Shown here: piece after piece, positions 40,161 to 44,699 of the stretch
Numbering within the stretch: the stretch's first letter is position 1
Layout: every line of letters begins with the position of its first letter
NCBI RefSeq assembly: GCF_900102055.1
Contig: NZ_FNBA01000004.1
Coordinates: 186,001 to 250,000, forward strand
DNA length: 64,000 nucleotides
Reading direction: 5' to 3'
DNA from: Ulvibacter litoralis
GTDB taxonomy: Bacteria > Bacteroidota > Bacteroidia > Flavobacteriales > Flavobacteriaceae
The notes under the pieces: model-generated
What the model was told of the DNA's origin: nothing
Database searches by the model: none
Seen by the model: only the letters and a program-made list of their open reading frames with translations
Program-made: the position numbers and the translations under genes

Positions 40161-40583
40161 ATGAAAGCGCCAAAATTCATAGAAGGAGGAAACCATAAAG
40201 ACGCACGAGGGACACTTTGTTATAATAACGAATTTGATGCTTCCGAAGTAAAAAGGTTCTATACCATAACCAATAATGACCTTTCATTTAAAAGAGGCTG
40301 GACAGGACACGCAATAGAAAGACGCTGGTTTATTGCTACTTCTGGTGTTTTTGAAATTACAGTAATTAAGATTGATACTTGGGAACAACCCAATCGTACT
40401 TTAAAACGACAAACATTTAAGATGTCTTCAGATAAATTAGATGTGTTAGAGGTCCCATCTGGTTTTGTAACCAGTATTCAAGCGCTGGAAACTGATTCTA
40501 AATTATTGGTGATGTCCGATTATATGTTAGGAGAGGTTACTGATGAACATCGTTTTGAAAGCACGTATTTTTCAGAAGAATAA
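40161..40583 (+). CDS. Cupin-fold sugar epimerase-like protein (WxcM-type)
   Basis: This is a 140-residue single-domain cupin, of the kind annotated as sugar epimerase or WxcM-like. DARGTLCYNNEFD at the start, GHAIERRWFIATSGVFEITV and the C-terminal LEVPSGFVTSIQALE are visible. It lies between capE and capF, an arrangement often seen in Bacteroidota L-FucNAc clusters. It may help with the epimerisation/reduction steps or be an accessory isomerase. The reaction is not established. Confidence 0.7.
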   Translation: MKAPKFIEGGNHKDARGTLCYNNEFDASEVKRFYTITNNDLSFKRGWTGHAIERRWFIATSGVFEITVIKIDTWEQPNRTLKRQTFKMSSDKLDVLEVPSGFVTSIQALETDSKLLVMSDYMLGEVTDEHRFESTYFSEE

Positions 40584-40624
40584 ATTAAAAAAAGAAATTT
40601 AAAATTTCTTAAATAACAAAGAGT

Positions 40625-41743
40625 ATGTTAAAAATTGGAATAACAGGAAAAGAAGGTTTTGTAGGGACACATTTGTACAATACATTAGGTACCACACCAG
40701 AACTGTATGAAAGAATAGACTTTAAACGTGCCTTTTTCGATGATGAGAAGGCGTTAGATGCATTTGTCTCAAGTTGTGATGTTATAGTACATCTAGCTGC
40801 TTTAAACAGACACAACGACCCGGAAGTGATATACGAAACCAATGTCGCTTTAGTTTCTAAGCTTATTGCAGCTTTGGAACGTACCAAAAGCACACCACAT
40901 GTATTATTTTCATCTTCTTCACAGGAAGAACGTGATAACCGCTACGGAAAATCTAAAAAGGAAGGAAGAGAATTATTTGAAGCTTGGGCACAAAAACAAA
41001 ATGCGGTGTTTACAGGAATGGTAATCCCGAATGTTTTTGGACCTTTCGGGCACCCATACTACAATTCGGTAGTTGCAACTTTTTCACATCAAGTAGCCAA
41101 TAATGAAACCCCAAAAATTGACGTTGATGGCGATCTTAAATTAATTTATGTAGGAGAGTTAGTTTCAGAAATAATTCAGAAAATTGAAGCTAAAGCGCAT
41201 GAGCCACTTTGTATTATAAAACATACTTCTGAAGCTAAAGTTTCAGAGTTATTGGCGCTTCTGAAGCATTACAAACTCGTATATCAAGAAAACGGAGAGA
41301 TTCCTGTGATTGAAAATACGTTCCAATTGAATCTGTTCAATACGTATAGATGTTATATGGATATCAAAAATCACTTTCCTGTAAAATTCACACAACATAC
41401 TGATCCGAGAGGGAGTTTTGTAGAGATTATTAGATTAGGGGTTGGAGGGCAAGTTTCATTTTCAACCACAGTTCCTGGCATTACCCGTGGGAATCATTAC
41501 CACAGCCGGAAAATTGAACGCTTTGCAGTTATAAAAGGAAAAGCGTTAATTCAGCTGCGAAAAATAGGAACTGATGAAGTGTTAGATTTTTATTTAGACG
41601 GAGACGAACCTGCGTATGTTGACATGCCAATTTGGTACACGCACAATATTAAAAACATAGGAGACGACATTTTATATACCAACTTTTGGATCAATGAACC
41701 GTACAATCCTGAAGATGCAGATACCTTTTTTGAAGAAGTTTAA
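40625..41743 (+). CDS. capF: Bifunctional epimerase/4-reductase, UDP-L-FucNAc pathway (SDR plus cupin)
   Basis: This is a 372-residue two-domain enzyme. The N-terminal SDR domain (residues 1-245) has TGKEGFVGTHLYN and a YGKSKKEGRELF catalytic segment. The C-terminal cupin (about 250-372) has HTDPRGSFVEIIR, TRGNHYHSRKIERF and the metal-binding histidines expected for CapF. It converts the CapE product to UDP-2-acetamido-2,6-dideoxy-L-talose. Directly after its stop begins the heptanucleotide repeat tract (41745), so capF and capG are separated by about 610 bases instead of being adjacent. Confidence 0.92.
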   Translation: MLKIGITGKEGFVGTHLYNTLGTTPELYERIDFKRAFFDDEKALDAFVSSCDVIVHLAALNRHNDPEVIYETNVALVSKLIAALERTKSTPHVLFSSSSQEERDNRYGKSKKEGRELFEAWAQKQNAVFTGMVIPNVFGPFGHPYYNSVVATFSHQVANNETPKIDVDGDLKLIYVGELVSEIIQKIEAKAHEPLCIIKHTSEAKVSELLALLKHYKLVYQENGEIPVIENTFQLNLFNTYRCYMDIKNHFPVKFTQHTDPRGSFVEIIRLGVGGQVSFSTTVPGITRGNHYHSRKIERFAVIKGKALIQLRKIGTDEVLDFYLDGDEPAYVDMPIWYTHNIKNIGDDILYTNFWINEPYNPEDADTFFEEV

Positions 41744-41744
41744 T

Positions 41745-41835
41745 CAGTGACTAGTGATTAGTGAACAGTGACTAGTAAACAGTAATTAGTAAGCAGTAAC
41801 TAGTGATTAGTGAGCATTAACAAGTCACAAGTCAC
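41745..41835 (+). repeat. Degenerate heptanucleotide repeat tract, 13 units (left)
   Basis: From one base after the capF stop, the DNA reads as 13 consecutive 7-base units without any phase slip. The first ten units follow YAGTRAN (for example CAGTGAC, TAGTGAT); the next is CATTAAC and the last two are both AAGTCAC. The final five units (41801-41835) match 42229-42263 of the right tract at 31 of 35 bases, in direct orientation. There is no ORF inside. It is not a CRISPR array, because the units are directly adjacent and variable. Confidence 0.9.
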
Positions 41836-41855
41836 TAGAATTAAAATAGAAAGAA

Positions 41856-42218
41856 ATGAAGACTCATAAGGACTTAGAAGTTTGGAAAAAGGCCATTGAT
41901 CTCGTGACTGATATTTATAATTTATCAGCAAGTTTTCCAACTGAAGAGAAGTACGGATTAACAAATTAAATGCGCAGAGCAGCGGTGTCTATACCTTCAA
42001 ATATTGCGGAAGGAGCCGCAAGACGAGGGGATAAGGAGTTTATTCACTATTTATATACTTCTCTTGGAAGCTGCATGGAGTTAGAAACACAATTGATTAT
42101 CTCAAAAAACCTTACTTTTGCAACGCAAGAGGATTTAGATAAAAGCCTAAGTACTTAAAATGATGTAGGTAAAATGCTGAACGGCTTGATAAAATCGGTA
42201 AAGAATAAACCGTTGTAG
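41856..42218 (+). pseudogene. Decayed four-helix-bundle (S23 / 23S rRNA intervening-sequence type) gene
   Basis: Starting at ATG 41856, the frame encodes KTHKDLEVWKKAIDLV, then EEKYGLTN, stop, MRRAAVSIPSNIAEGAARRG, KEFIHYLYTSLGS and ELETQLIIS, the standard four-helix-bundle/S23 family pattern. An in-frame TAA at 41967-41969 stands where the family has Gln (YGLTNQMRRA), so a single CAA-to-TAA change would explain it. A second TAA at 42156-42158 interrupts before NDVGKMLNGLIKSVKN, and the natural stop is TAG at 42216. Total length is 121 codons, normal for the family. Heptanucleotide repeats flank it on both sides. Related Avd proteins serve in diversity-generating retroelements, but no reverse transcriptase is here. 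Confidence 0.85.
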
Positions 42219-42228
42219 TAATATATGA

Positions 42229-42333
42229 TAGTGAATTGTGAGCAGTAACTAGTCACAAGTCACAAGTCACAGATCACAGATCACAGATAACAAATAATAA
42301 GTCACAGATCACAAGTAACAAATCACCAGTAAT
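42229..42333 (+). repeat. Degenerate heptanucleotide repeat tract, 15 units (right)
   Basis: Fifteen consecutive 7-base units with no phase slip run from 42229 to 42333, shifting from TAGTGAA-like to AAGTCAC- and AGATCAC-like units. The first five units are a direct repeat of 41801-41835. After a 35-base A-rich stretch, four more units in the same phase appear inside the start of capG (42369-42396). Confidence 0.9.
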
Positions 42334-42352
42334 CAAGTAAAAAAAAATAAAA

Positions 42353-43525
42353 ATGTACCCAAACACACCTGTCACCAATAACCAATCCCCAACTAAGAAG
42401 CTAAAAGTAATGACCGTTGTGGGTACTCGCCCAGAAATTATACGACTTTCAAGAACGTTAGATGCGTTAGATGCTTCGGAAGCGATTGAACATATATTGG
42501 TGCATACAGGTCAGAATTATGACTACGAGTTAAACCAGATATTTTTTGACGATTTAGAAATCCGAAAGCCCGATTATTTTCTAGAAGCCGCAGGGACAAC
42601 AGCAACCGAAACTATTGGGAATATATTAATTAAAGTAGATCCTTTGTTAGCGCAACTGAAGCCTGATGCTTTTTTAGTGTTAGGTGATACCAATAGTTGT
42701 TTGTGTGCTATTCCTGCGAAGAAAAGACACATTCCTATTTTTCATATGGAAGCAGGAAATAGATGTTTTGATCAACGCGTACCTGAAGAAACGAACCGTA
42801 AGATTGTAGATCATACCAGTGATGTAAATTGTACCTATAGTGATATTGCGCGTGAGTATTTATTGCGTGAAGGCTTACCTGCAGATCGTATTATTAAAAC
42901 AGGATCACCCATGTTTGAGGTGCTAAATCATTACTTGCCAAAAATTAAAACTTCAGATGTGTTAGAACGTCTGGATCTTACCGCTCATAAATATTTTGTA
43001 GTATCAGCACATAGAGAAGAAAATATTGGCAGCGATAGAAACTTTCAGAATTTAATGGAAAGTTTAAATTTAATAGCCGATACCTACAAGTTACCGATAA
43101 TCGTTAGTACACATCCACGTACTCGAAATATGATTGAAAAGAAAAAAATTGAAATGCGTCCAGAAGTTCAGTTTTTAAAACCCTTAGGTTTTAATGACTA
43201 CAACGCATTACAATTGAATAGTTATGCGGTACTTTCAGACAGTGGAACCATTTCTGAAGAATCTTCTATTTTAAATTTCCCGGCCTTAAATATTCGCGAA
43301 GCTCACGAACGTCCAGAAGCCATGGAAGAAGCTTCCGTAATGATGGTAGGATTAGCTCCCGAGCGTATTATGCAAGGCTTGGTTCAATTGCAAACACAGG
43401 CTAGAGGAGAAGAGAGAAGTTTTAGAAGGGTAGCAGACTATTCAATGCCAAATGTAGGTGAGAAGATGGTACGTATTATTTTAAGTTATACGAGTTACAT
43501 TAAAAGGGTTGTTTGGAGTGAGTAG
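42353..43525 (+). CDS. capG: UDP-N-acetylglucosamine 2-epimerase-type enzyme (non-hydrolysing), UDP-L-FucNAc pathway
   Basis: This is a 390-residue GT-B-like epimerase of the WecB/CapG/FnlC family, the last step to UDP-L-FucNAc. The conserved core begins at KLKVMTVVGTRPEIIRL; HTGQNYDYELNQIFFDDL, GDTNSCL, HMEAGNRCFDQRVPEE and SDSGTISEESSIL are intact. The first 15 or so residues (YPNTPVTNNQSPTKK) are not part of the family's usual start. They appear to be encoded by heptanucleotide-like repeats, so the ancestral start may have been nearer 42401-42410. It overlaps the next glycosyltransferase gene. Confidence 0.92.
   Translation: MYPNTPVTNNQSPTKKLKVMTVVGTRPEIIRLSRTLDALDASEAIEHILVHTGQNYDYELNQIFFDDLEIRKPDYFLEAAGTTATETIGNILIKVDPLLAQLKPDAFLVLGDTNSCLCAIPAKKRHIPIFHMEAGNRCFDQRVPEETNRKIVDHTSDVNCTYSDIAREYLLREGLPADRIIKTGSPMFEVLNHYLPKIKTSDVLERLDLTAHKYFVVSAHREENIGSDRNFQNLMESLNLIADTYKLPIIVSTHPRTRNMIEKKKIEMRPEVQFLKPLGFNDYNALQLNSYAVLSDSGTISEESSILNFPALNIREAHERPEAMEEASVMMVGLAPERIMQGLVQLQTQARGEERSFRRVADYSMPNVGEKMVRIILSYTSYIKRVVWSE
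42369..42396 (+). repeat. Four heptanucleotide-like units inside the 5' end of capG
   Basis: CTGTCAC, CAATAAC, CAATCCC and CAACTAA follow one another and stand exactly 140 bases (20 x 7) after the first unit of the right tract. They encode residues about 6-15 of CapG, before the conserved protein core. Confidence 0.6.
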
Positions 43526-44699
43526 CGGAACCATATTATATATTGGCGGATTTGAATTACCGGATAAGAATGCAGCAGCACATCGGGTTATTTCAAACGG
43601 AAAAATACTTCGAGAATTAGGCTATAAGGTTGTTTTTTGTGGAATGAATAAAGATTCTGAAAACAATGGAGTGTCTACGCCTCAGGAGTATTATGGATTT
43701 GAATGTTATTCACTTAACTACCCAAATAGCACTATAGATTGGTTTAAGTACATTATTGAGTATAATTATTATGTACATTTAATTAAAAGCCAAGAAAACG
43801 TAAAGGCGATTATTTGCTATAATTTGCCATCAGGTTCATTATATCGATTAAAAAACTATTGTAATAGCAATCAAATTAAGATTATTTCAGATTGTACCGA
43901 ATGGTATGAAGCACCTAAAGAAGGTGGTTTTTTAAATAGAAAAGTAAAAAAAGGAGACATCTTTTGGCGAATGCGAAATTTGCATTTTAAAATGGATGGA
44001 ATTATTTCTATTAGTGAATATCTTGATAGGTATTATTCGGTAAATAATCAAAATTCTATTAAAGTTCCTCCTTTAGTAGATGTTACTGATACTAAATGGC
44101 AAAATGACTTAGTGGTAACGAATCGTCCAGTCCAGTTTATTTATTCTGGATCTCCTTTCTCTTTAACAAGTAAATCTAGTGCTAAAGATCGACTTGATCT
44201 TATTATAAAAGCAATGTCTAACCTTAAAAAAGAAGGGCGTTCCTTTTTTTTGCATATTGTTGGAATAGAACTAGAAAATTTTATTGAGATATATCCTAAT
44301 TTTAAAGATGAGATAGAGTCCTTGAAAGATTCAATTTCTTTTTATGGTCGCGTATCTCATTCTGAGTCTGTTAGGTTGTTGAAGAGCAGTGATTTCTCAA
44401 TTTTTATTCGAGATGAAAATATTGTTACAAAAGCAGGATTTCCAACCAAGTTTGTAGAGTCTATTACCTGTGGAATCCCTGTATTAACCAATAAAAACAG
44501 CAATATTGTTGACTATTTAACAGAAGGAGAAAATGGTTTTTTAATTTCAACAGAAAGTGATAAAAGCATTCAAGATTCCATAGACAAAGCTATTTCATTA
44601 AGTCCTGAAGAAATTTATAAAATGAAAGTAAATTGTAAAAAATCTCAGGTATTTGATTATCATAATTTTTTAGACGATTTTAAATCGTTGCTAAAATAA
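43518..44699 (+). CDS. Glycosyltransferase (GT4-like)
   Basis: This is a GT-B glycosyltransferase of about 393 residues. The N-terminal ILYIGGFELPDKNAAAHRVISNGKIL matches a family common in polysaccharide clusters; IISDCTEWYE and GIISISEYLDRYY lie mid-protein. The donor-binding half has FIYSGSPFS, YGRVSHSESVRLL and KFVESITCGIPVLTN. Two starts are possible: TTG at 43509, or GTG at 43518, which leaves a more typical short N terminus. Both overlap the end of capG. Its substrate may be UDP-L-FucNAc by position, but that is inference. Confidence 0.82.
   Translation: MSSGTILYIGGFELPDKNAAAHRVISNGKILRELGYKVVFCGMNKDSENNGVSTPQEYYGFECYSLNYPNSTIDWFKYIIEYNYYVHLIKSQENVKAIICYNLPSGSLYRLKNYCNSNQIKIISDCTEWYEAPKEGGFLNRKVKKGDIFWRMRNLHFKMDGIISISEYLDRYYSVNNQNSIKVPPLVDVTDTKWQNDLVVTNRPVQFIYSGSPFSLTSKSSAKDRLDLIIKAMSNLKKEGRSFFLHIVGIELENFIEIYPNFKDEIESLKDSISFYGRVSHSESVRLLKSSDFSIFIRDENIVTKAGFPTKFVESITCGIPVLTNKNSNIVDYLTEGENGFLISTESDKSIQDSIDKAISLSPEEIYKMKVNCKKSQVFDYHNFLDDFKSLLK

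Follow-up and report, generated by a model that had tools for sequence, protein, structure and literature searches.

The gap between the capF-like and the capG-like gene of Ulvibacter litoralis holds an S23-type frame set between tracts of seven-nucleotide units, and the question that this locus raises is what kind of sequence this is and how it came to lie between two genes of one pathway. The window analysed here is a stretch of 64,000 nucleotides, and all coordinates refer to it. S23 proteins form a family of homopentamers that is distantly related to Avd. Heptanucleotide repeats of bacteria include the STRRs of cyanobacteria.

The separate parts of the picture are already in print: S23 ORFs within intervening sequences (IVSs) of rRNA (PMC4990558), arrays of heptanucleotide units, and the occurrence of S23 genes in cas loci. 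The heptad TAACTGA has been described in Beggiatoaceae, Cyanobacteria and Bacteroidetes (MacGregor 2015, PMC4679880) and the heptads GGGAATC and GGGGATT in Xanthomonas and Nostoc (Rehm 2015, PMC4692102), and 18 S23 genes in cas loci were listed among CRISPR-Cas-associated functions (PMC3936711). Our searches of the open-access literature turned up no paper that connects S23 genes with inverted heptad arms or that describes cassettes of this kind at operon junctions.

Results

The capF-capG gap holds a broken S23 gene between inverted heptad tracts

The insert, which starts at the stop codon of capF (end at 41743) and precedes the conserved portion of capG, measures about 650 bp. The features of the locus are as follows:

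40625..41743, + strand: capF-like gene (Epimerase and Polysacc_synt_C; Pfam PF01370 and PF14667; from the ORF list), upstream neighbour
41744..41819, no strand: left arm of GTGA-type heptads, with GT[GA]A in a single phase at 41747-41810
41820..41839, no strand: inner left tract of TCAC-type heptads, the type switching at 41820
41856..42218, + strand: S23 / four-helix-bundle frame (PF05635), broken by TAA codons in frame at 41967-41969 and 42156-42158
42229..42252, no strand: inner right tract of GTGA-type heptads
42253..42336, no strand: right arm, made of TCAC-type heptads that complement those of the left arm
42337..42371, no strand: poorly matching units that hold the annotated capG ATG (42353), with an in-phase portion of the right arm on either side
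42372..42392, no strand: three more heptads in unchanged phase (TCACCAA TAACCAA TCCCCAA), within the annotated capG ORF
42353..43525, + strand: capG-like gene (Epimerase_2; Pfam PF02350), downstream neighbour

Ten GT[GA]A motifs share one phase in the left arm, from 41747 to 41810, and eleven consecutive in-phase units of the TCAC, TAAC or TAAT type run from 42253 to 42329 in the right arm. A preliminary description of this DNA had reported 7-base periodic tracts on either side of the S23 frame, and the lag-7 identity bears this out, with 0.64 for the left tract (41744-41855) and 0.60 for the right tract (42221-42404) compared to maxima of 0.46 and 0.44, respectively, in 1000 dinucleotide shuffles; the tested pieces of capF, S23 and capG lacked a lag-7 peak. 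The last five units on the left and the first five on the right had also been described as direct repeats. The best 35-base direct match between the tracts is indeed 31/35, because each tract changes heptad type internally, but the main relation is an inverted one: the outer left tract is of the GTGA type and the outer right tract of the TCAC type, which gives 34-nt arms of 74% complementarity, and the score of the left tract against the reverse-complemented right tract (12.5) was reached by none of 500 shuffles.

The downstream end of the insert does not lie at 42352, where it had been placed before, as heptads continue to 42392. The alignment of capG homologues begins at codon 15 (42395) in 13 of 17 cases and at residues 5, 10, 10 and 13 in the others. 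Since the homologues mostly match capG from residue 15, about the first 14 codons of the annotated ORF belong to the insert. The annotated capG start is inside the insert (42353-42394), so that either the annotation of the N-terminus is wrong or the protein carries additional residues encoded by the arm. An Rfam scan of 40500-43700 returned no family at the gathering threshold.

Read across its two TAA codons, the window frame scored 132.1 bits with PF05635 (curated cut-off 33.8), and its open 62-aa piece still 74.6 bits; the TIGR02436 score was 73.3 at a cut-off of 24, which places the frame in the S23 (23S_rRNA_IVP) family. The earlier description of a single S23-type ORF was thus right about the family, but not about an intact ORF: an intact four-helix-bundle gene at this place is ruled out by the two in-frame stop codons, and the window copy cannot give rise to a full-length S23 product. 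The genome of U. litoralis has an intact second S23 gene, located between clpP and a DUF58 gene, and this copy has GTGA-type arrays in inverted orientation, one per side.

Relatives have an empty capF-capG junction

We compared the capF-capG junction with that of 17 capG-orthologue loci from relatives (64-86% identity). In all 17, capF aligned to its last residue and capG started -4 to 62 nt later; neither a six-frame profile search for S23 nor a reading by eye for heptads found anything in these gaps. By the same measure, the gap in the window is 666 nt and contains S23. Since the relatives are without the gene and the tracts together, the gene and both tracts came or went as one and, on these alignments, the S23 gene with its tracts is a single insert of about 650 bp. 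The insertion proposed for this gap in the preliminary description is supported, apart from its downstream end.

Inverted heptad arms are common at S23 genes

S23, or four-helix-bundle, genes are common: they were found in 113 of 149 Flavobacteriaceae genomes, which carry 4.6 copies on average if positive, and in 157 of the 198 Bacteroidota sampled. Certain database records label the proteins as ribosomal proteins, and a search of phage records with one S23 query gave no match. For the analysis of flanks, we used 86 loci from Flavobacteriaceae, 29 from a Bacteroidota draw, which overlaps partly with the Flavobacteriaceae, and 80 from named genomes, 76 of them usable. The Flavobacteriaceae loci include the window copy (L002), the ORF of which was taken to end at the second TAA. 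Of 91 Flavobacteriaceae loci, five (L001, L094, L114, L120, L123) were left out, as were three of 25 Vibrionaceae loci (L293, L297, L307), since the motif search did not place the ORF; four of the 80 named-genome loci, including the archaeal L222, were left out because of short flanks. The 35 loci of other phyla were sorted by record title and include Ignavibacteria and Melioribacteraceae. As the loci are mostly the top-scoring matches of each search, the sample is biased towards well-conserved S23 genes.

Within-locus arm complementarity was higher than in pair-shuffled and far-window controls in all four sets. The far-window 95% level was exceeded by 60/86 loci from Flavobacteriaceae (26 did not exceed it), 19/29 from the Bacteroidota draw (10 did not), 34/41 from named Bacteroidota (7 did not) and 29/35 from other phyla (6 did not), the titles of the latter spanning CPR lineages, Clostridia, Verrucomicrobia, Planctomycetes, Acidobacteria, Proteobacteria and more. 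In the named genomes, inversion at 61 of 76 S23 genes exceeded the 95% level set by 183 non-S23 ORFs from these loci, and lag-7 identity was 0.407 at the S23 genes compared to 0.282 at those ORFs. The idea of a mobile unit, raised in the preliminary description, is supported by this pre-set test of heptad flanks at other S23 genes and by the joint absence of gene and flanks in relatives.

With an arm-score cut of 10.5, which was set after inspection of earlier arm-score results, 136 of 191 loci scored above the cut; the plasmid S23 loci (6/10 above it) and the Vibrionaceae were weaker, the latter with 9/22 loci above 10.5 (13/22 not) and far windows at 1/22. Plasmid locus L321 has direct rather than inverted arrays, and none are visible at L320. 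Direct-orientation scores exceeded the control level, too, in 21/86 Flavobacteriaceae loci. The polarity of the flanks was assessed with the pattern AGTN4x3 in 195 loci: upstream of S23, it was found 31 times in sense and 4 times in antisense orientation, and downstream twice in sense and 29 times in antisense orientation, with corresponding counts of 0, 1, 0 and 0 in 186 far windows. Both this polarity and the inverted arms of the window contradict the earlier suggestion that the ORF and one flank were copied together as a direct-repeat unit.

In the 136 loci above 10.5, the aligned arms had a median length of 26 nt, and their inner ends preceded the S23 start by a median of 30.5 nt and followed its stop by a median of 9 nt. 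For 130 of them, a frame of 100 codons or more was identified upstream in the same direction; the outer end of the left arm was located at a median of 4 nt past the stop of this frame, and within -10 to +15 nt of it in 84/130.

The heptad units vary between cassettes, even within one genome, while the arms of one cassette match each other; some cassettes have, as read by eye, 8-nt units (L003, L004, L069, L085). Comparison of the arms of 13 same-genome cassette pairs gave medians of 5.8 and 4.8, and a value of 12.0 for the sole pair with an S23 identity of at least 55%. Across contexts, arm similarity grew with S23 identity, from a mean of 6.02 (8496 other pairs) to 8.01 (269 pairs with at least 55% identity), and this tracking of the S23 lineage was equalled in 0 of 2000 permutations. 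Arms and gene therefore appear to travel together, and the arms appear, from these similarities, to drift afterwards. Taken as a whole, S23 genes are best read as mobile cassettes with inverted heptad arrays as their ends.

Single-linkage clustering of the loci by matches between their flanking ORFs put 41 loci into one context, in which neighbouring gaps are merged. On a quick tree, 98 rows in 10 contexts required 16 context changes, with a minimum of 9. Since many S23 genes of Flavobacteriaceae are found at one place across genera, most copies look inherited and not freshly moved. Movement is thus occasional; the cassettes then stay in place for a long time, and the window copy has decayed.

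Filled and empty junctions in cyanobacteria

Cassettes that are present in one record and absent from another, at junctions whose flanks are nearly identical, were seen in a three-gene operon of Nostoc plasmids, for which nine of 11 matching records were compared. The geneA/geneB junction consists of a stop codon, 3 nt and ATG in five plasmids and holds an S23 cassette in C052_D and 53789_a (420 nt each) and in strain N6 (602 nt); in C057_A, there is a 199-nt gap with a different short annotated gene. The geneB/geneC junction is empty (-1 to 4 nt) in eight plasmids and is filled in 53789_c by 505 nt with a different S23, the GGGAAAA-type arms of which differ from those of the geneA/geneB cassettes. 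C052_D and 53789_c, filled at opposite junctions, have a geneB that is 99.7% identical. The cmr2/cmr3 junction, compared in three of 22 matching records, carries a cassette in PCC 7003 and none in PCC 7002 or PCC 6714. There was no clear target-site duplication at these Nostoc and cmr junctions; a possible TTCTA at one Nostoc junction and a possible ATG at another could both be explained by resemblance to heptads or to the start codon.

On cyanobacterial plasmids, S23 genes were seen in the cas6-cas4 gap and in the cmr2-cmr3 gap (L319, L321, L316). In N6, the S23 gene is interrupted by a repeat that has heptad arms and no S23 of its own (L326:960-1200), and seven further copies of this repeat were examined (L332-L338). 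It is MITE-like, its conserved heptad arms lying about 100 nt apart, and is found in Nostocales at 95 places in 43 plasmid records.

Heptad arrays across genomes track S23

In the 149 Flavobacteriaceae genomes, the pattern AGTN4x5 had a median of 11 matches in the 113 S23-positive genomes compared to 0 in the 36 negative ones, and at least three matches were found in 80/113 and 2/36 of them, respectively. The Spearman correlation between array load and S23 was 0.69, and 0.66 after accounting for genome size, both values being uncorrected for kinship. Arms adjacent to S23 add only 0.16 pattern matches per locus in this set and are therefore not the source of the correlation. For 159 Vibrionaceae, the medians were 11.5 with S23 and 2 without (p 5e-8, likewise uncorrected for kinship), and 52/105 S23-negative genomes of this family had at least three array matches. 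Outside Bacteroidota, 14 of 15 named S23-positive genomes had array matches. A control pattern, the reversed TGAN4, tracked S23 as well (median 4 compared to 0), presumably because many units contain TGA. A period-8 phenomenon of equal weight was rejected: AGTN5 occurred in 35/149 Flavobacteriaceae genomes, many of the matches listed being 4-nt repeats, compared to 100/149 for AGTN4.

For 20 arrays picked by hand in five S23-positive genomes, 18 had no S23 frame within about 1.5 kb, a count that does not estimate a share, as the pick omitted one array known to lie beside S23. Several of these arrays begin directly past a stop codon or finish directly before a start codon. The existence of arrays without nearby S23 means that arrays are not only arms and that S23 is not strictly required for their presence. 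Two of the 20, at L280:1430-1540 and L286:1480-1600, are heptad arrays in inverted pairs; they make a bare hairpin that separates a stop codon from a start codon and has no gene inside. The genome of U. litoralis itself has GTGATTG-type arrays that alternate with a dispersed repeat (TTTCTTTTGCTTGTCCAAAAGAAACGAACC...) on contigs C15, C30, C38 (300-302 kb) and C44 (L062-L064, L066, L067), several of them near contig ends and with no S23 profile match inside. A solo array of seven GTGACTT units, without partner arm or S23, is located at C33:231826-231878 (L065:2160-2420).

Discussion

The capF-capG gap of U. litoralis probably contains a decayed small mobile cassette, i.e. an S23 gene in inverted arms of ~7-nt units, which was inserted whole. 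As a possible mechanism, the S23 protein would recognise the heptad arms as DNA and act on them, and it may also act in trans on arrays without S23. During DNA synthesis, slippage would extend the units, and switching of the template from one inverted arm to the other would keep the two arms alike. The joining chemistry could be supplied by host enzymes, which we invoke because the cassette is too small for a transposase. Junctions between a stop and a start codon may be the least harmful places for insertion.

An RNA-level explanation is rather unlikely. Here, the insert would be an IVS whose arms pair in the operon transcript and which RNase III excises, selection for the stem keeping the arms complementary. 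The S23 ORFs in rRNA IVSs do have complementary ends around them and are cut by RNase III (PMC4990558), the cassettes are intergenic, where RNA continuity may be dispensable, and the folded RNA of the insert, which the preliminary description had pointed to, beat all 20 shuffles tried, albeit mildly (z -2.26). However, the 518 arm mismatches include 81 of the gene-strand G.U types at 76.7 expected, with no sign of wobble tolerance, and 115 of the opposite-strand type at 85.9 expected; a 7-nt period is needless for a stem, and arrays without a partner exist. The missing excess of gene-strand G.U and a period that RNA pairing does not need favour handling at the DNA level. It is unlikely, too, that the association is passive, with slippage making arrays independently of S23 and S23 merely persisting in arrays or in tolerant genomes. 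S23 landing in one existing array should have direct flanks, whereas the polarity is 31:4 and 2:29; the empty junctions examined have no arrays, arm sequence tracks the S23 lineage across contexts, and the lag-7 excess and the inversion are linked to S23 genes and not to other ORFs of the same loci. These results have to be set against arrays without S23 nearby, which are easily found, the arrays of S23-negative Vibrionaceae, and the S23-less heptad-armed repeat dispersed in Nostocales plasmids, all of which a passive origin would accommodate.

That S23 genes are resident regulatory genes at conserved places, e.g. before a thiolase-like gene, with the arms as regulatory sequences, seems very unlikely to us. 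The cluster of 41 loci in one context, with neighbours named by eye, and the strong link between context and S23 lineage on the quick tree would fit such genes. On the other hand, S23 identity was below 40% in 30 and 40-55% in 226 of 415 same-context pairs, the 41-locus context was entered or left several times (9 changes), S23 is also found in unrelated operons, including capsule and cas operons, and 36 of 149 Flavobacteriaceae have no S23 match at all. Least credible, and highly improbable, is movement of the cassette in trans by a reverse transcriptase or a Y1 transposase in a DGR-like or REP/RAYT-like manner, of which the DGR-like form had been entertained in the preliminary description. 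The genome of U. litoralis has no match to PF00078 or PF01797, 49 S23-positive genomes with neither enzyme have a median of 6 array matches, and 10 genomes with one enzyme but no S23 have a median of 0. Array load shows no association with reverse transcriptases (p 0.23) and a weak one with the presence of Y1 (p 0.0017). The distant relationship of S23 to Avd (NF033474 with E 9e-7 and 29.2 bits for L005, cut-off 80; phrog_3206) speaks for such a partner, but as a necessary one, either enzyme is rejected by its absence here and by arrays that persist without it.

A decayed cassette can be compared to several known systems. The IVSs in 23S rRNA of Coxiella and Leptospira share the protein family, complementary ends around an ORF and an interruptible host RNA with it, and the ORF is decaying in Coxiella as well. 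In contrast to these IVSs, which lie in rRNA helices, the window insert is located between capF and capG, outside 23S and 16S genes, and the operon cassettes have 7-nt periodic arms with a unit differing per cassette. Avd is a distant sequence relative with a four-helix bundle, but two intact S23 proteins from relatives reached only 29.2 and 23.4 bits at a cut-off of 80, and the window S23 piece had no match to the Avd model; unlike a diversity-generating retroelement, the locus has no reverse transcriptase (PF00078) at its disposal in the U. litoralis genome. The cassettes resemble MITEs and REP-type repeats in being short, with inverted ends and no internal transposase, but differ from them in carrying a conserved protein gene and in ends that vary between cassettes. 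With insertion sequences and MITEs, they have filled and empty sites in near relatives in common, but not the terminal inverted repeats shared by a family, as arm similarity across contexts is low (6.02 compared to 8.01). The published heptanucleotide repeats are likewise 7-nt tandem arrays, largely intergenic and absent in some relatives, in the portions of the reports concerned with them (PMC4679880, PMC4692102). S23 goes unmentioned in those portions, whereas here, a subset of the arrays are inverted S23 arms and array load tracks S23.

More tentatively than for the window itself, S23, a small pentameric protein, may be the agent of transposase-less mobile elements, recognising the heptad arrays specific to each cassette and spreading them. 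Bacterial heptanucleotide repeats such as TAACTGA, GGGAATC and the STRRs of cyanobacteria may largely be its products; S23 genes would then be the autonomous elements, and the bare or MITE-like heptad-armed elements would depend on them. S23 as a mobile cassette gives a simple reason for the scatter of these genes through operons, cas operons included, and cassette insertion is a simpler reading of S23 genes in cas loci than a function in CRISPR-Cas. At the same time, the link between S23 and arrays offers a candidate cause for heptanucleotide repeats, and could account for an orphan protein family as well as for a class of repeats that has been a puzzle in bacteria.
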